Assembly (NCBI GenBank): GCA_903927465.1
Contig: CAIYMY010000175.1
Location: 1 to 56,713 of the forward strand
Direction of reading: 5' to 3'
DNA length: 56,713 nucleotides
Source: an uncultured Rhodospirillales bacterium
Lineage (GTDB): Bacteria > Pseudomonadota > Alphaproteobacteria > Acetobacterales > Acetobacteraceae
Within the stretch, counting starts at the first letter, position 1. Each line of letters opens with the position of its first letter. Positions 3,898-11,005 of the stretch are shown here, in pieces. The position numbers were made by a program, and so were the translations under genes. The notes beneath the pieces are model-generated. The model was not told the origin of the DNA. It was given only the letters and a program-made list of their open reading frames with translations, and ran no database searches.

Positions 3898-5919
3898 GTG
3901 CTGATGATCCTCGCCCTCACTTTGGGGTCGCTTGCGCTGCTGTCGCTGGCGGCGCCCTTGCTGGCGCGGTCGGCGCTTGGCGTCAGGCTGCTTTATGCCG
4001 GCGCGGCCTTGGCTTCTTTGGTATTCGCGCTGGGCGGGATTATCGGGCTGATCGCAGCACCCACCACGCTCTCCCTGCCCTTTGGCCCGCCCTGGGGGGT
4101 GATGCGGCTTGCGCTTGACCCGCTTTCCGCCTGGTTCCTGCTGATTCTGGGCCTTTGCGGCGTTGCTGCTTCCGCGTTCGCCTTTGGCCATGTGAAGGGG
4201 CCTGAGGCTGCGCGGCGGCTGGTACCTTATCCGCTGTTTCTCGCCGGCATGGCGCTGACCTTGCTCGCCGCGGATGGGTTTACCCTGGTGCTCGGATTTG
4301 AACTCATGTCCTTCGCGTCATGGGTGCTGGTCGCGCATGAACATGAACACGCGGAAAATCGCCGTGCCGCGCGGCTTTATCTGGGCTTCGCGGCATTGGG
4401 GGGCGCGGCGCTGATCCTGTGTTTTGGCTTGCTGGCCGCTGGCGTATCGGCGGGGGCGGGTTTCGCTGCCTTGCGCGCCGCGCCGCCGGATGGCTTGCGC
4501 GCTTTGGCGATATTGGTGCTGGTGTTGATCGGCGCCGGATCAAAGGCGGGGCTAGTGCCTTTGCATGTCTGGCTACCCTTGGCGCATCCCGCCGCACCCA
4601 GCCATGTGAGTGCGCTGATGTCAGCCGCCATGACCAAGGTGGCGCTATATGTGTTGGCGCGTGTGATCTTTGACCTGGCCGGCCCGGCGCAGCCGCTGTT
4701 TTGGGGTGCGGTGCTGATGGCGCTGGGCTTGGCCTCGGCCATCATGGGGGCGCTGCGCGCGGCTTTGGAGGAAGACACCAAAACGCTGCTGGCCTGTTCC
4801 ACCATCGAAAATATTGGGCTGATCACGGTGGGGCTTGGCCTGGCGCTGGCGTTTCGCGCGGCGGATTTGGGCGCGCTGGCGGCCGTGGCGGCAGGGGCCG
4901 CGCTGCTGCATGCGCTGAACCACGCCATGTTCAAGACGCTGCTGTTTTTGGGCGCGGGTGAGGTGCTGCATGGCGCGGCATCGCGGCGCATGGATCGGCT
5001 GGGCGGCCTGATCCATGCCATGCCCTGGACTGCTGGCCTGGTGCTGCTGGGTGCCGCTGCCGCCGCTGCGCTGCCACCGCTTTCGGGCTTTGCCTCAGAA
5101 TGGTTGCTGTTGCAGGCGCTGATCGCCGCCTGGCGCGTGGGGGATTTGGCGTTTCAGATTGGCGCCGCGGCGGCAACTGCCCTGGCGGCGCTGGCCGTGG
5201 CGCTGGCGGCTGCGGCGATGCTGCGCTTTTACGGTATGGTGTTTCTGGGCCGGCCACGCAGCCCGCGCGCCGCAGGTGCCGCCGAGCTTTCCGGCGTGGC
5301 ACGTGCTGCGCTGATCATGCCCGCCGCGCTGACCGTGATCTTTGGCCTGATACCAGGGCATTTGCTGGAACTCGCCGCGCCGGCGCTGCGGCTGCTGACA
5401 GGTGCTGGGGCGGGGCTATCCGCCTTGGGCGGCGTGACGGTGACCGTGGCAGAAGGCGGCGCCGGTTATGCCCCGTTGATCGTTTTTGTGTTGTTGCTGC
5501 TGCTGGGGGGTGGCGTTGTGCTGCTCCTGCGGCGGCAGGCGCCGGGCATTGTGCGTGGCCCCGCCTGGGATTGCGGCTTCATCGCGGCGCCGCATCATCT
5601 GCCCTTTGGCGATCCGGCGACGCAAGTTTCCGCCGCCGGCATGGCGCAACCACTGCGCCGCATGCTGGGCAAGACGCTGCTGGCAGCGCGGGAGAAGGTG
5701 GAAATGCCACCCCCCGGCACTACCGCGCCCGCACGTTTGCAGGCGGGGTTTCATGATCCTGTGCTGGCGCTGATTTCCGGGCCCTTGCCGCGGGTGCGTG
5801 ATAGGCTGGCGGCGCTGGCGGAACGCTTGCGTGATTTCTCGCTCAGGCAATGTCTGGCGCTTGGCTTTGCGGTGTTGCTTGCGTTGATGGCGCTGCTGAT
5901 TTGGCTGGAACGGACATGA
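3898..5919 (+). CDS. hyfB: HyfB/NuoL-like ion-translocating membrane subunit
   Basis: This 673-residue polytopic protein of the proton-conducting transporter family (NuoL/M/N, MrpA/D, HyfB) would form an antiporter-like half-channel in the membrane arm of a complex I-like enzyme. The key charged residues are present: E135 in VLGFELMSFASW, K216 in GAGSKAGLVPLHVW, K247 in MTKVALYV and K346 in HAMFKTLLFLGAGEV. Ion translocation therefore looks intact. The first of six overlapping genes, it ends ATGA into hyfC. The GTG start at 3898 is chosen for the hydrophobic N-terminus; an ATG two codons later is possible. The C-terminal extension of about 150 residues after the core is usual for HyfB. Confidence 0.88.
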   Translation: MLMILALTLGSLALLSLAAPLLARSALGVRLLYAGAALASLVFALGGIIGLIAAPTTLSLPFGPPWGVMRLALDPLSAWFLLILGLCGVAASAFAFGHVKGPEAARRLVPYPLFLAGMALTLLAADGFTLVLGFELMSFASWVLVAHEHEHAENRRAARLYLGFAALGGAALILCFGLLAAGVSAGAGFAALRAAPPDGLRALAILVLVLIGAGSKAGLVPLHVWLPLAHPAAPSHVSALMSAAMTKVALYVLARVIFDLAGPAQPLFWGAVLMALGLASAIMGALRAALEEDTKTLLACSTIENIGLITVGLGLALAFRAADLGALAAVAAGAALLHALNHAMFKTLLFLGAGEVLHGAASRRMDRLGGLIHAMPWTAGLVLLGAAAAAALPPLSGFASEWLLLQALIAAWRVGDLAFQIGAAAATALAALAVALAAAAMLRFYGMVFLGRPRSPRAAGAAELSGVARAALIMPAALTVIFGLIPGHLLELAAPALRLLTGAGAGLSALGGVTVTVAEGGAGYAPLIVFVLLLLLGGGVVLLLRRQAPGIVRGPAWDCGFIAAPHHLPFGDPATQVSAAGMAQPLRRMLGKTLLAAREKVEMPPPGTTAPARLQAGFHDPVLALISGPLPRVRDRLAALAERLRDFSLRQCLALGFAVLLALMALLIWLERT

Positions 5920-6875
5920 GTTTCGTGACCGGCTTTTTGACGCAGCTTTTGCATCTGGCGCTGCTGCTGGCGCTGGCGCCGGTGCTGACAGGTTTTGTGC
6001 GTTGGCTGAAGGCGCGGCTGATGGGAAGGCGCGGGCCGCATCCCTTGCAGCCCTGGCGCGATTTCTTGAAGCTTTTGAAGAAGCGCCCGGTGCTGGCGGA
6101 AAACGCCTCCATCATTTCGCGCGCTGCGCCTTATGTCGCGGTGGCCTCCGCGTTGCTTGCGGCGGCGCTGGTGCCGAGTTTTGCGCGTGGCATGGTGCTG
6201 GCACCTTTCGCGGATTTACTGCTGATTGCAGGGCTTTTGGCGCTGGGGCGCTTTGCCATGGCGCTGGCGGGGATGGATGTCGGCACCGCCTTTGGCGGTA
6301 TTGGTGCGACACGCGAAATGGCCTTTGCTGCGCTCGCGGAACCTGCCTTGGTATTAGCCGCGTTGATTTTCGCCATTCTGGCCGGCACAACGAATCTGGA
6401 TGTGATTACTGGGATTTTCCAGGAAGGCACGCTAGGGCTGCGTGTCTCGCTCGGCTTTGCTGCGCTTGCGCTGCTGGCGGTGGCCGTTGCGGAAAACGCG
6501 CGCATCCCGGTTGATAATCCCGCAACGCATCTGGAACTCACCATGGTGCATGAGGCCATGATCCTGGAAGCATCCGGGCGGCATTTGGCGTTGTGGGAAT
6601 TTCAGGCATCGCTCCGCCTCACGCTTTGGTTCGCGCTGCTGGCAGCGGCTTTTCTGCCCTTTGGCATGGCGGCGCCTGGCGCGGGGCCAATCGCCTGGGT
6701 GATGGGGCTATGCGTCTTCATCACGAAAATGGCCGCGCTTGCCTTTGCGCTGGCAGTGTTTGAATCCACGATTGCCAAGATGCGTGTCTTTCGTGTGCCG
6801 GAATTTTTGGGCGCGGCGCTGCTGCTTGGCTTGTTGGGCGCGTTATACCTTTTTGTCTCGACGGGGCTGTCATGA
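5916..6875 (+). CDS. hyfC: HyfC/NuoH-like membrane anchor subunit
   Basis: The 319-residue membrane protein is homologous to NuoH/HyfC. In complex I this subunit joins the membrane arm to the soluble arm and forms the quinone chamber. The signature is VAENARIPVDNPATHLELTM followed by VHEAMILEASG, the conserved loop that contacts the NuoB/NuoD-type subunits. The start is taken at 5916, an ATGA overlap with hyfB, because translation from there gives MSFVTGFLTQLLHLALLLALAP, a normal first membrane helix. An upstream start at 5850 would add residues that are only hyfB read out of frame. Coupled translation with hyfB and hyfE is expected. Confidence 0.88.
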   Translation: MSFVTGFLTQLLHLALLLALAPVLTGFVRWLKARLMGRRGPHPLQPWRDFLKLLKKRPVLAENASIISRAAPYVAVASALLAAALVPSFARGMVLAPFADLLLIAGLLALGRFAMALAGMDVGTAFGGIGATREMAFAALAEPALVLAALIFAILAGTTNLDVITGIFQEGTLGLRVSLGFAALALLAVAVAENARIPVDNPATHLELTMVHEAMILEASGRHLALWEFQASLRLTLWFALLAAAFLPFGMAAPGAGPIAWVMGLCVFITKMAALAFALAVFESTIAKMRVFRVPEFLGAALLLGLLGALYLFVSTGLS

Positions 6876-7540
6876 GTTTCGGGCAGCTTCCCTATGATCT
6901 GGCGCATTTGCTGGGTGGGGCGGTGCTGTTGCTATCTTTTGTGCTGCTGTATCAGCGGCGCATTTCTGCGGTGATCAATGCCTTCGCGACACAAGGCGCG
7001 CTGCTGGCTCTTGCCGCTGCTTGGCAAGGTTATGTGCAGGGTGCTGCAGGGCTTTACGTGACGGCGGCGATTGCCTTTGGCGCCAAGGCGGTGCTGATCC
7101 CCTATGCGCTGCATCGGCTGGTACGGCGCTTCAATTTGCACCGCGGCGTTGATCCCGCCCTTGGCATTGGCGCTTCGCTGATTGCCGGCGTGGCGCTGGC
7201 GGGCTTCGCCATGCTGGTGGTGCTGCCGGCAACTGCCGGGCAGCGCGCCTTGGCGCGGGAAGATTTGGCGCTGGCGCTTTCCGTTGTGCTGCTGGGCGGC
7301 CTGATGATGATCACGCGGCGCAATCTGATCAGCCAGGTGATCGGGCTGCTCAGCTTGGAAAATGGGTTGATCCTTGCCGCCGTGGGTGTCGCCGGTATGC
7401 CGCTTGTGATGGAACTTTCCACCGCCGCGCTAGTGTTGATGCTGGCGGTGATCGCTGGCGTCTTCGCGCTGCAAATGGGCGAGAGCTTCCAAAGCCTGGA
7501 TACGGAAAGCCTGGATACACATAGGGGGGAAGGCGAATGA
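6872..7540 (+). CDS. hyfE: HyfE-like membrane subunit
   Basis: A 222-residue hydrophobic protein matches hydrogenase-4 component E, a NuoK-related subunit with extra N-terminal helices. The NuoK-like part contains ISQVIGLLSLENGLILAAVG, where the membrane glutamate expected in the proton path is present. About six to seven membrane helices can be drawn. The start overlaps hyfC by ATGA and the end overlaps hyfF by ATGA. HyfE is found in Hyf, Ehr and some Mbh-like complexes but not in standard complex I. This helps place the cluster in the group-4-hydrogenase lineage. Confidence 0.85.
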   Translation: MSFGQLPYDLAHLLGGAVLLLSFVLLYQRRISAVINAFATQGALLALAAAWQGYVQGAAGLYVTAAIAFGAKAVLIPYALHRLVRRFNLHRGVDPALGIGASLIAGVALAGFAMLVVLPATAGQRALAREDLALALSVVLLGGLMMITRRNLISQVIGLLSLENGLILAAVGVAGMPLVMELSTAALVLMLAVIAGVFALQMGESFQSLDTESLDTHRGEGE

Positions 7541-8967
7541 TGCCGCTGCCCTGGATCATGGTGTTCTTCCCCTGGGTGGGTGCGCTGGTCTTGCTGGCCT
7601 TGCCAAGACTTCGCGCCGCCGCGGCGGTGAATATCGGCTGCGCCGCCCTTTCCTTTCTGCTGGCCTTGGCGCTGTTCACCGTGCCGCATGGTGAACAGGG
7701 CTGGACGCGCATTGATGCGCTGAACCTGCCCTTTGTGCTGCTGGCGTCTTTTGTGGCTTTGACCACCGCCATTTTCTCGGCGGCCACGCTGGCGGCGGAG
7801 GAGTTCGATCACTGGCGCATCCGTGCCTATCACGGCGCTTTTCAGGTGTTTCTCGGCGCGCAATACCTCGCGCTGCTGTCGGATAATCTTGGCGTGCTTT
7901 GGGTGGCGATTGAAATCGCAACCCTCGCCACTGTGCTGATGGTGGCGGTGCATCGCACGCCGGCGGCGATGGAAGCGGCATGGAAATTCTTCATGCTCTG
8001 TGGCTTTGGCATTGCGCTGGCACTGTTCGGTACCATCTTGCTCTATTCCGCCGCGCAAGCATTGCTGGATGCGGAAAGCGGGCTTTCCTGGGCGGCACTG
8101 CGGCGCGTGGCCGCGCGGTGTGATGCGGATACGCTGAACCTCGCCTTCGTTTTTCTGCTGGTGGGCTATGGCACCAAGGCGGGCCTGGTGCCGCTGCATT
8201 CCTGGCTACCCGATGCGCATGCCGAAGGCCCTATTGCGATTTCCGCCGTGCTATCCGGGCTTTTGCTGAACGCTGCGATGCTGGCTGTGCTGCGCGCAAA
8301 AGCCATTGTCGGCGCGCATCCCGGCACCATTGCGGTCGGGCCTTTGCTCATGACGCTCGGGCTCGCTTCAGTGCTGCTGGCATCGCTGGCACTTTGGCGG
8401 CGGCGAGACGCGCGGCGCTTTTTTGGTTGGAGTTCCATTGAACATATGGGCATTGCCGCTTTTGCCTTTGGTGTTGGTGGCCCGGCGGCGACGCTTGCGG
8501 GCTTGCTGCATATGATGGGTCATTCACTGGTGAAAAGCGCGATTTTCTTCGGTATTGGGCGCGCCGTGCAGCAGAAGGGCAGCCAGAAACTCGCGGATAT
8601 TTCCGGGCTGGTCGCGAGTGATCCCTGGCTTGGCTGGGGGCTTGCCTTGGCGATTGGCGCCATTGCCGGGCTGCCGCCCTTTCTGCTTTTTGCTTCCGAA
8701 TATGCCGTACTGAATGCGGCTATGGCAGCGCAGCCTTGGCTTGCTGTGGCACTTGCGCTTGGGCTGGTGCTGGCGGTGACGGCGCTGATCCATACGCTGC
8801 AAGCGCTATGTTTTGGTGTGGCAACACCTGATGTGGCGCCTTCTGGCAGCGCGCTTGCGGTGCTTGTGCCGCTTTGGCTGCATTTGGCGGTGGCGTTGTT
8901 GCTGGGGCTCGCCATGCCCACGCTTTTCAGCGGTTTTCTCAAGGCGGCAGCGGGGATGGTCGGATGA
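7537..8967 (+). CDS. hyfF: HyfF-like ion-translocating membrane subunit
   Basis: The second antiporter-like subunit of the cluster (476 residues) has the NuoN/HyfF architecture of about 13-14 membrane helices. E126 (VAIEIATLATVL), K214 (GYGTKAGLVPLHSW) and K333 (HMMGHSLVKSAIFF) match the conserved ion-path residues. The neighbouring LPDAHAEGPIAISAVLSG loop is typical of this family. With HyfB it gives two antiporter modules in the predicted complex, fewer than the three plus NuoK of complex I. It overlaps hyfE and hyfG by ATGA on each side. Confidence 0.87.
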   Translation: MMPLPWIMVFFPWVGALVLLALPRLRAAAAVNIGCAALSFLLALALFTVPHGEQGWTRIDALNLPFVLLASFVALTTAIFSAATLAAEEFDHWRIRAYHGAFQVFLGAQYLALLSDNLGVLWVAIEIATLATVLMVAVHRTPAAMEAAWKFFMLCGFGIALALFGTILLYSAAQALLDAESGLSWAALRRVAARCDADTLNLAFVFLLVGYGTKAGLVPLHSWLPDAHAEGPIAISAVLSGLLLNAAMLAVLRAKAIVGAHPGTIAVGPLLMTLGLASVLLASLALWRRRDARRFFGWSSIEHMGIAAFAFGVGGPAATLAGLLHMMGHSLVKSAIFFGIGRAVQQKGSQKLADISGLVASDPWLGWGLALAIGAIAGLPPFLLFASEYAVLNAAMAAQPWLAVALALGLVLAVTALIHTLQALCFGVATPDVAPSGSALAVLVPLWLHLAVALLLGLAMPTLFSGFLKAAAGMVG

Positions 8968-10478
8968 TGGGGCCGGCTTCCAGCCTGATCCGCAGCGGCA
9001 ATCCGCAAGGGGCAAAACCTTATGAGCGGTTTTTGCTCTCCCCCACCGCCTGGGGACAATTGCCGGCGGCTTTGCAGCAGGAAACGGAATTGGCGCTGCT
9101 TGGGCTTTGGGCAGATGCGACGCAGGTGCATGCCTGCTTCCTGCATGAACCAAGCGCGGAAGCGGTGCTGGCTTCAACACCGGCGGCGGGGTGGAATTAC
9201 GCCGCGCTTTCCCCCGCGCGCCCCGGCGCGGTGCGCTTTGAACGCATGATTCTGGAATTATGGGGCCATCGCGCCGAGGGTGCTGTGGATTTGCGCCCAT
9301 GGCTGGATCACGGGCGCTGGAATCTGCGCCACCCGCTTGCTGCCAAACCCATCCCCTTTGCGGGAGAAGCCCCGCAGCCGGAATTCCTGCCGGTAGAAGG
9401 GGAGGGCATTCACCAAATCCCTGTTGGCCCCATTCACGCCGGCGTCATTGAACCCGGACATTTCCGCTTTTCTGTCCAGGGGGAAGTGGTGGTGCGGTTG
9501 GAACAGCGGCTTGGCTACACGCATAAGGGCACGCTTTCGCTCATGCTTGGCACGTCGCCCCGTGCGGCGGTGCGTTATGCGGCGCGGCTTTCCGGTGACA
9601 CAACGGTTGCGCATTCCTGGGCGTTTTCTGCGGCAGTGGAAGCAGCGCTTGGCGTGACGGCGCCACCGCGCGCGCTGCATTTGCGCGCGTTGATGCTGGA
9701 ATTAGAACGCATCCATAATCACCTGAATGATTGGGGTTTTGTCTGCAATGACGCGGCCTTCGCTTTCCCCCATGCGCGCTGCGGTTTTCTGCGCGAAGGC
9801 GTACTGCGCGCAGTCGCCGCCGCTTTCGGCCACCGGTTGATGATGGACCGCGTTCTGCCTGGTGGTGTCGCGCCCGATATCGCGCCGCGCGGGGCCGAGG
9901 CGATTCTAGCCGCGCTGGATGCGGTGGAAGCGGAAATCCCATCACTGATGCAGATTTATGAGGCGCATGCCAGCTTGCAGGATCGGGTGGTAACAACAGG
10001 ATATCTGCGCCCCGATTTGGCGCGCGCCTTCGCCGCGGGTGGGCATGTGGGCCGCGCTTCTGGCCGCGGTTTTGATGCGCGCCGCCTGCCGCAAAACCAA
10101 CCCTATCCAACGCTGCGTTTCGACGTGCCGTTGCTCGAAACGAGCGATGTAGACGCGCGGGTGCGGATTCGTGTGTTGGAACTCAGTCAATCCATCGCCC
10201 TTGTGCGGCAAATCCTGGCCAGCTTACCGGCGGGCGAAACGATGGCGCCTTTGCCGGTGCGCGCCGGCGAAGGTGTGGCAATGATTGAAGGCTTTCGCGG
10301 TGAATGCCTGCATTGGATCGCGCTTGATGATGGCGGGATCATCCGTGGTCTTTTCCCGCGCGATCCTTCCTGGCTGCAATGGCCACTGCTGGAGGCAGCG
10401 ATTGAAGACAATATCGTCGCCGATTTCCCGCTATGCAATAAATCCTTCAATTGTTCCTATAGCGGGGTGGATTTGTGA
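8964..10478 (+). CDS. hyfG: HyfG/NuoCD-like large subunit lacking NiFe-ligand cysteines
   Basis: This 504-residue protein fuses a NuoC-like N-terminal domain (about 1-140) to a NuoD/[NiFe]-hydrogenase large-subunit domain. In true group 4 hydrogenases, RxCGxC and a C-terminal DPCxxC bind the NiFe site. Here the first motif reads RLSGDTTVAH, with S210 and T213 at the cysteine positions. The C-terminus reads CNKSFNCSYSGVDL, with no DPCxxC and no cleavable extension. The subunit should therefore not hold nickel. That pattern fits energy-converting hydrogenase-related (Ehr) complexes, whose reaction is unknown. The start at 8964 overlaps hyfF; the frame extends further upstream, but that part is hyfF read out of frame. 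Confidence 0.85.
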   Translation: MMGPASSLIRSGNPQGAKPYERFLLSPTAWGQLPAALQQETELALLGLWADATQVHACFLHEPSAEAVLASTPAAGWNYAALSPARPGAVRFERMILELWGHRAEGAVDLRPWLDHGRWNLRHPLAAKPIPFAGEAPQPEFLPVEGEGIHQIPVGPIHAGVIEPGHFRFSVQGEVVVRLEQRLGYTHKGTLSLMLGTSPRAAVRYAARLSGDTTVAHSWAFSAAVEAALGVTAPPRALHLRALMLELERIHNHLNDWGFVCNDAAFAFPHARCGFLREGVLRAVAAAFGHRLMMDRVLPGGVAPDIAPRGAEAILAALDAVEAEIPSLMQIYEAHASLQDRVVTTGYLRPDLARAFAAGGHVGRASGRGFDARRLPQNQPYPTLRFDVPLLETSDVDARVRIRVLELSQSIALVRQILASLPAGETMAPLPVRAGEGVAMIEGFRGECLHWIALDDGGIIRGLFPRDPSWLQWPLLEAAIEDNIVADFPLCNKSFNCSYSGVDL

Positions 10479-11005
10479 TGCTGTGGCCGAAGCTCGCCCG
10501 CGCGCTTTTCGCAAAGCCCCTCACTGATAATGCGCCGCTGGTGCCGCGTGAGACCATTCAGGCTTTGGGCGAAAGGCTGGCCGCGACTAGCCGCGCGCGG
10601 CTTGGCCGTAGCCTTGCGATCCGTGAAGTGGATAGCGGTTCCTGCAATGGCTGTGAGCTGGAAGTGAATGCGCTGCAGAATGTTGCCTATGATCTGGAAC
10701 GCTTTGGGCTGCGCTTTGTCGCCTCCCCCAAGCATGCAGATGTGCTGCTGGTGACCGGCCCCGCATGTCTGAACATGCGCGAGGCATTGGAACGCGCGCT
10801 TGCCAGCACGCCGGAGCCACGCTGGGTGGTGGCGGCGGGCGATTGCGCCGTCGATGGTGGCGTCTTCAAGGGTTCCTATGCGGTGGAAAACGGCATTGCC
10901 GCCGTGCTGCCGGTGGATTTGCTGATCCCCGGCTGCCCGCCTACGCCCGCGCAATTGCTGGAAGGGCTGCTTTCCCTGCTGGAAACAGAAGCGGCAAAAA
11001 AATAG
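10475..11005 (+). CDS. hyfI: HyfI/NuoB-like small iron-sulfur subunit
   Basis: The 176-residue small subunit would carry the [4Fe-4S] cluster nearest the large subunit. Four cysteines are in the expected places: C57 and C60 (SGSCNGCELEVNA), C124 (GDCAVDGG) and C154 (IPGCPPTP). The CxxC spacing is the hydrogenase type rather than the adjacent CC of complex I NuoB. The cluster thus looks functional although the partner large subunit has lost its metal ligands. It is the last gene of the operon, starting at a GTGA overlap (an ATG three bases later is equally possible) and followed by a terminator hairpin. No HyfH/NuoI ferredoxin-like gene is present. Confidence 0.87.
   Translation: MMLWPKLARALFAKPLTDNAPLVPRETIQALGERLAATSRARLGRSLAIREVDSGSCNGCELEVNALQNVAYDLERFGLRFVASPKHADVLLVTGPACLNMREALERALASTPEPRWVVAAGDCAVDGGVFKGSYAVENGIAAVLPVDLLIPGCPPTPAQLLEGLLSLLETEAAKK

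Follow-up and report, generated by a model that had tools for sequence, protein, structure and literature searches.

What reaction is left to a hydrogenase-like enzyme that has lost the ligands of its metal site? The question is raised by HyfG, a 504-residue protein encoded at 8964..10478 on the forward strand of a 56,713-nucleotide stretch of DNA, hereafter the window, from an uncultured Rhodospirillales bacterium of the Acetobacteraceae (contig CAIYMY010000175.1). Comparison with published descriptions supports HyfG as the large subunit of an Ehr-type (hyfBCEFGI) complex, a member of the complex I family. The type is widespread and already has a name, and the present HyfG is one instance of it. 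Ehr complexes, intermediate between hydrogenases and complex I, occur commonly in Pseudomonadota, yet databases call them hydrogenase or NADH dehydrogenase. Our tentative answer, which we rate at slightly less than an even chance, is that the complex acts as a redox-driven proton pump on a small substrate other than H2 or a quinone bound in the manner of complex I.

Loss of the NiFe ligands and of the C-terminal extension

HyfG consists of a NuoC-like front and a NuoD/HycE-like core. Alignment with HycE of E. coli formate hydrogenlyase (FHL) places S210, T213, S498 and G501 on the NiFe ligands C241, C244, C531 and C534, with no ligand cysteine elsewhere in register, which confirms the initial annotation that all four are missing. 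The replacement RLSGDTTVAH, which that annotation had read in the first cysteine motif, is present in the open reading frame (ORF): RLSGDTTVA (R208-A216; 9585..9611, +), with S210 and T213 on C241 and C244, stands in place of RVCGICGFA. The C-terminal DPCxxC, also described as replaced, has indeed given way, HyfG ending in CNKSFNCSYSGVDL (C491-L504; 10434..10475, +) in place of IIGSLDPCYSCTDR, with N496 for the canopy Asp, S498 for the third ligand (C3) and G501 for the fourth (C4).

Conservation was surveyed in 127 distinct HyfG sequences, namely the 129 rows of at least 430 residues from loci L033-L187 and the window, minus two duplicates (L052 and L173); shorter rows were dropped, and the members of the window's genus (L003-L031) were kept outside this set. 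Cysteine occupies none of the four ligand columns in 126 of the 127, the window included, the single exception being a Xanthobacteraceae metagenome-assembled genome (MAG; L098) with Cys at column 210. That column otherwise holds Ser (120 sequences) or Ala (6), and column 501 is Gly throughout (127/127). All 127 proteins end three residues past the C4 column, as do three NuoD rows, and E. coli HycE and HyfG extend 35 residues past it. We take the protease cleavage site of HycE to lie at this C-terminal extension; HyfG is then made at about the length of the processed hydrogenase, so a maturation protease should be unnecessary for it.

HypD was not found in the host genome (3.78 Mb, 98.5% complete), where HypA, B, C, E and F were not searched for genome-wide. 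Core HyfG, scored at 320 bits or more against P0001, was counted by hand in 69 of 146 genomes searched, host included; only 8 of these encode HypD, which in the other 61 is missing or scores under the family cut-off. A HypD piece below the cut-off occurs in G052, and HypD is present in G063 and G109, the two fetched relatives whose group 4 subunit bears the cysteines. Two features of group 4 [NiFe] hydrogenases, the RxCGxC/DPCxxC ligands and the C-terminal extension, are absent from HyfG; its AlphaFold model confirms the fold, the nearest solved one being HycE of FHL (template modelling score 0.80).

The ratio of nonsynonymous to synonymous substitution rates (dN/dS) of HyfG against five congeners is 0.06-0.09 and, by hand count at 320 bits, core-type HyfG is present in 35/35 genomes of the genus, which argues that the gene is not decaying. 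It also occurs in 27/54 other genomes of the family and in 7/57 from elsewhere in the class. Among 299 Pseudomonadota drawn evenly, 47 genomes (host included) have HyfG at 476 bits or more, the next score being 278. Public records (for example H10, H12 and H16) label HyfG of this family a nickel-dependent hydrogenase, HypE or NADH-quinone oxidoreductase subunit C, names that mislead.

An apparently rebuilt pocket

The roles of pocket residues were taken from passages of the structure papers on FHL and the archaeal MBS complex (PMC9474812, PMC7684303), and hydrogenase and NuoD columns were read on three rows each. The canopy arginine (HycE R478) is R445 (10296..10298, +), found in 127/127. In the beta1-beta2 loop (I162-E163; 9447..9452, +), whose roles come from the same passages, I162 occupies the column of complex I H38 and HycE D192 and is Ile in 124/127; E163, kept in 125/127, occupies that of the proton-donor Glu, HycE E193 or MbhL E21. 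H253, E406 and R364, the counterparts of HycE H284, E437 and R395, are each present in 127/127. The canopy Asp (HycE D529), called strictly conserved in those passages, is replaced by N496, the column being Asn in 124/127 and Asp in none. Within the former CGxC loop, D212 is Asp in 127/127, where hydrogenase rows have Ile and NuoD rows Val or Leu. We infer that the pocket has been rebuilt rather than eroded, a hydrogenase-like canopy being kept minus the metal and its carboxylate shifted to the other loop.

Both residues that bind the quinone headgroup in complex I are missing, H38 being replaced by I162, as described above, and Y87 by G211 (126/127). H158 was considered as a counterpart of the quinone-binding H38 and ruled out, since alignment with Nqo4 places H34 on H158 and H38 on I162.

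The suggestion that C491 and C497 are extra thiols with a new role is not supported. They are not ligand positions, C497 aligning on the Pro and C491 on an Ile of PLIIGSLDPCYSC, and they are not constant (104/127 and 101/127): both occur in 97 of the 127 sequences, one alone in 11 and neither in 19. On a tree of 72 core rows C491 changes 9 times and C497 11 times, and their co-occurrence was not significant in phylogenetically independent pairs (median p 0.625, few pairs). Given this inconstancy and the non-significant link, a new functional site at C491/C497 was rejected.

Membership of the Ehr class

The Ehr assignment proposed at the outset is supported: the CxxC motifs are lost, the published six-gene operon is matched and the HyfG of CH34 has the same pocket letters. 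The window encodes a group 4-like large subunit without NiFe CxxC motifs together with Mrp/Nuo-like membrane subunits, as Ehr complexes do. The same six-gene operon is reported for Nitrospira, A. ferrooxidans and Cupriavidus; in the relevant passages, accounts of Ehr give the large subunit as lacking NiFe motifs or not classed as a hydrogenase, and its reaction as unknown or only guessed (PMC6349859, PMC10284858, PMC5596200, PMC7735108, PMC2864759, PMC12342949). The shared pocket letters were read from the CH34 HyfG (L172), which lies on the same replicon as the published operon; the match rests on the replicon and a single hit in a record without a gene table.

In a 91-row tree, all 84 core and acetic-acid-type rows fall on one side of a branch with support of 100, and the seven remaining rows, Cys-bearing group 4 subunits and NuoD, on the other; the method was quick, the branches are long, and the rows do not include independently named Ehr references (Geobacter, Nitrospira, archaea), CH34 HyfG having been dropped by thinning at 70%. 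The plasmid rows L174 and L177 lie nearest to the Cys-bearing and NuoD rows, on long branches. Nothing was found that sets the complex of the window apart from other Ehr complexes, the Asp-to-Asn change in the canopy, D212, the HyfC channel mouth and the missing relay all being family traits. No demonstrated function for the hyfBCEFGI type was found in the literature searched, and the change from canopy Asp to Asn with D212 may already be published.

Electron entry at HyfI

The NuoB/HycG-like small subunit HyfI (10475..11005, +), whose GTG start overlaps the HyfG stop, has a [4Fe-4S] cluster site of hydrogenase-type (CxxC) spacing formed by C57, C60, C124 and C154. All four cysteines are kept in 120 of the 122 core sequences scored, five further core sequences having no HyfI within the fetched stretch. 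The exceptions are L058, without the fourth Cys, and L092, whose ORF ends ahead of that position. HyfI of the window's genus also has an extra Cys, C98 (TGPAC), not seen in most relatives.

With E. coli proteins as queries, no homologue of HyfH, NuoI, HyfA, HycB, NuoF or NuoG was found in core loci L033-L187, bar one weak HyfH match (26%) at L100; the same queries do retrieve relay or NADH-module homologues at Cys-bearing and complex I control loci. Among 20 further loci, L249 has a HyfH-like ORF (31%) about 4 kb past the operon; this and the L100 match are the two ferredoxin-like neighbours observed. The only HyfH match of the host genome lies on contig C130, alongside a NuoF piece. Thus, as a rule, the electron source of HyfI is not encoded with the operon.

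A second loss of the pocket bears on this cluster. In 12 acetic-acid-type relatives from the same family (L068-L072, L075-L081) the HyfG pocket letters are gone: the D212 column holds G, S, A or V, and R445 is left in 6/12 and E163 in 1/12, while R364 and E406 are kept in 12/12. HyfI has its four cluster Cys in 11 of these 12 genomes, the first being Ser in G035. That the HyfI cluster mostly outlives the HyfG pocket argues that an electron is still moved there. The group is nested inside the core HyfG of the family (support of 100 for the group, in a quick tree with long branches that leave its placement unsure). HyfI lies away from the operon in 4 of the 12 genomes; its apparent absence from four loci was rejected, since it was found elsewhere in each genome. 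The acetic-acid-type loci that were read (L068, L072 and L077) have a divergent membrane arm.

Membrane arm

The antiporter-type subunits look pump-ready from their conserved residues. These are E135, K216, K247, K346 and E401 in the NuoL/HycC-like HyfB (98 sequences; 3898..5919, +, exact start uncertain) and E126, K214, H221, K333 and E388 in the NuoM/N-like HyfF (120 sequences; 7537..8967, +), each of them charged or His in at least 95% of sequences and aligned with residues of NuoL/M/N; these counts exclude incomplete rows and those less than 40% identical to the window. Their pumping roles are in part our assumption. The HyfB residues are all kept in the window, as are E126, K150, K214, H329, K333 and E388 of HyfF. 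HyfB has K216 and K295, both within the same 95% level of conservation, where HycC of E. coli FHL has Leu208 and Gln285, losses noted in the FHL structure paper (PMC9474812).

HyfC, NuoH/HycD-like, is placed at 5916..6875 (+) from an inferred start, the ATG at 5916, which shares 4 bases with the end of hyfB; its residues are numbered from 5850, where the ORF begins as listed. Across 115 sequences the counterparts of HycD R108, E130, E138, E189, E203 and E206 are kept and the column of HycD Y102 is Ala or Gly. The HyfC charges D122, R134, D143 and E215 match E. coli HyfC/HycD and not NuoH. In HyfE (6872..7540, +), a membrane subunit with a weak NuoK-like match, the conserved E163 and E181 are common to E. 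coli HyfE, and NuoK E36/E72 are not matched in register. At the HyfC channel mouth, in the 225-227 region of the window protein, two of the three Glu residues conserved in HycD and NuoH and needed by FHL, HycD E199 and E201, are replaced. An intact E-channel was rejected on account of these replacements and of a HyfE without NuoK E36/E72 in register.

Comparison with known systems

The complex shares with that of E. coli HycE and HyfG (group 4) the NuoC-NuoD-like fusion, the canopy Arg, the counterpart of E193, the H284/E437/R395 chain and a CxxC cluster site; only the E. coli systems have the four cysteines, the canopy Asp, the 35-residue tail, relay and maturation genes, and HycD E199/E201. 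The likeness to NuoD/Nqo4 (49 kDa) of complex I lies in the absence of NiFe cysteines, the same fold, an end three residues past the C4 column and the antiporter pumping charges. However, complex I has H38, Y87, a canopy Lys and an Asp, whereas HyfG has neither headgroup residue, a canopy Arg and an Asn; the NADH module and NuoI are encoded with complex I and were not found at Ehr core loci. Archaeal MBS (Mbx) has likewise lost the NiFe site and the quinone residues but, as passages of PMC7684303 describe it, keeps two Cys and has a three-Cys proximal cluster, no equivalent of MbhL E21 and a relay subunit. The window, in contrast, has none of the four NiFe cysteines, a four-Cys CxxC site in HyfI, E163 and no relay gene.

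A proposed mechanism and its alternatives

If the complex is a redox-driven proton pump working on a small substrate, a soluble carrier docking at the position of HyfH/NuoI would hand electrons straight to the HyfI cluster, and these would pass to or from a small organic substrate that S210, D212, R445, N496 and S498 bind in what was the NiFe site. E163 and the H253/E406/R364 chain would move a proton, and the charge change would drive proton pumping through HyfC, HyfE, HyfF and HyfB, with coupling via a HyfC channel mouth that differs from those of hydrogenases and complex I. As far as sequence allows, H2 chemistry is excluded; quinone binding in the style of complex I and chemistry in the style of MBS fail the residue tests, although new modes of either may exist. 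The tests thereby mark H2, complex-I-style quinone and MBS-style sulfur as unlikely guesses. The fixed pocket residues (D212, R445, N496, S210/S498, E163), together with the missing relay, make the question testable by point mutants and a search for the donor.

Several observations weigh against such a pump. The AlphaFold model of HyfG is poor at the pocket loops (predicted local distance difference test below 50 at 137-175, 177-187 and 481-486), so pocket geometry is read from homologous columns. The pocket has decayed in the acetic-acid-type relatives despite the retained complex, and L058 (core) and G035 (acetic-acid-type) are each short of one HyfI cluster Cys. As the operon has no Fe-S relay gene, it points to no particular electron donor, and possibly none exists. 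Finally, the HyfC channel mouth has Ala, Ser or Thr for HycD E199 and His for E201 (112/115); in FHL, joint mutation of HycD E199/E201/E203 abolishes 99% of H2 production, according to a passage of PMC9474812. With these replacements coupling to the membrane arm may be altered or lost; the mouth, which faces the pocket, has changed along with it.

A more specific version of the proposal we regard as possible but somewhat unlikely. In it, the hyfBCEFGI Ehr complexes would form a catalytic branch of their own within the complex I family: the canopy carboxylate would have moved from the DPCxxC loop (Asp to N496) to the CGxC loop (D212) with the canopy Arg and the donor Glu kept; the HyfC mouth would have been re-specified (Glu to Ala, Glu to His); electrons would enter at the proximal cluster without a relay; and proton-coupled redox of a small substrate unused by characterised members would power proton pumping. 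The acetic acid bacteria would then have undergone a second loss of the pocket, with the membrane arm retained and the cluster ligands kept in almost every case.

Of the alternatives, a quinone reductase or quinol oxidase survives best, although we consider it unlikely. As in complex I, the emptied NiFe chamber would hold the head of a quinone, but different residues would bind it. The chamber has the same position, the architecture is NuoC-NuoD-like, the antiporter-type subunits are intact, and according to PMC7684303 complex I itself originated through such a ligand loss. However, both headgroup residues are gone, as the H38 and Y87 columns show (I162 in 124/127, G211 in 126/127), and the canopy Asp, mutation of which impairs quinone reduction by complex I (PMC9474812), is Asn; in addition, D122, R134, D143 and E215 of HyfC are charges of E. 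coli HyfC/HycD and not of NuoH.

We judge it improbable that the complex merely transports ions, with a peripheral HyfG-HyfI arm that serves a structural or regulatory purpose and is redox-inactive. D212 and R445 are invariant in the core, and the HyfI cysteines are kept in 120/122 core sequences and 11/12 acetic-acid-type genomes, even where HyfI has been relocated and the pocket lost. What such a transporter would explain is the absence of an electron-input gene from the operon beside intact HyfB/HyfF charges, the pocket decay in acetic-acid-type relatives, and the cluster Cys missing from G035 and L058.

Reduction of sulfane sulfur, as by the archaeal MBS complex, is very unlikely. MBS too lost its NiFe ligands and quinone residues (PMC7684303, in the passage cited above), but its two remaining cysteines of four, three-Cys cluster, relay and want of an E21 equivalent set it apart from the window, with no ligand Cys, a four-Cys cluster, no relay and E163.

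Still less credible is a formate-linked pump that works with formate dehydrogenase and makes no H2. Such a link is proposed in PMC6349859 for Ehr in other lineages and in PMC7735108 for A. ferrooxidans, and FdhA-like matches below the family cut-off lie on other contigs of the host genome; yet the fetched flanks give, besides the true hydrogenase locus L073, just two weak FdhA-like hits (23-24% identity; L096 and L114), the 20 further loci give none, and core loci have no HyfA/HycB. Public product names such as nickel-dependent hydrogenase large subunit point to a hydrogenase, whose ligands would then be unusual; this reading, like that of a pseudogene in decay, has a negligible chance in view of the ligand columns, the absence of HypD, the missing C-terminal extension and the dN/dS of 0.06-0.09.

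Operon, host genome and neighbouring genes

The six genes hyfB, C, E, F, G and I lie in that order at 3898-11005 (+). Neighbouring genes overlap by 4 bases at 6872-6875, 7537-7540, 8964-8967 and 10475-10478 as listed, with a fifth such overlap at 5916-5919 if hyfC begins at its second ATG; the stretch reads as a single translationally coupled operon. The initial view that the rest of the complex is well kept applies to HyfB, C, E, F and I, and does not extend to HyfA, HyfD, HyfH and HyfJ of the E. coli operon, which have no counterpart in the hyf operon of the window. Named loci of sufficient extent show the order B-C-E-F-G-I again, as do annotated plasmid stretches, except for one Rhodococcus plasmid in which a HyfI-like gene comes first.

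The closest named record by HyfG is a Roseomonas MAG (95% identity). A host genome without complex I was considered, PF00346 finding only HyfG in it, and rejected, as NuoF and NuoI-like pieces are present on contig C130. The NuoF match there begins at the fifth base of the contig, and most congeners have a second, NuoD-like match; the host nuoD was probably lost in an assembly gap. A complex without membrane arm was likewise rejected for G045: one of its contigs has HyfG-HyfI by themselves, and a second contig has HyfB and a HyfF-like match. The complex is split between contigs in this family member (L036 and G045:C2:261673).

Of 109 complete loci, among which two records appear twice (L121/L173 and L052/L124), 47 have a small helix-turn-helix regulator beside the operon. 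It lies on the same strand and upstream in 42, and overlaps the start of hyfB in some annotated cases; in the window and its near relatives the search gave no such gene. In many Alphaproteobacteria (L173, L176, L178, L184, L186, L187 and others) a small XRE-type regulator lies directly upstream of hyfB, and a different ORF, by eye like an XRE-cupin regulator (for example L258:15240-15794), clusters in 12 of the 20 later-set loci. Spermidine-synthase-like or related methyltransferases are found near 14/109 loci and 2/20 further loci, and DUF1275 (YoaK) near 8/109 and 1/20. Spermidine-synthase-like proteins and DUF1275 adjoin the operon across classes of Pseudomonadota (L175, L179, L182, L263, L265, L100, L172). 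These recurrences of regulator, spermidine-synthase-like proteins and DUF1275, given without a background rate, are leads.

In the flanks fetched, neither formate dehydrogenase nor carbonic anhydrase (E. coli Can as the one query) is a constant neighbour; both are reported as neighbours in A. caldus, in a passage of PMC3826726. On a Methylovirgula plasmid (L176:1-3219) the operon adjoins F0F1 ATP synthase genes with AtpZ/AtpI-type small subunits. We take the order of these ATP synthase genes to resemble that of the sodium-type N-ATPase.

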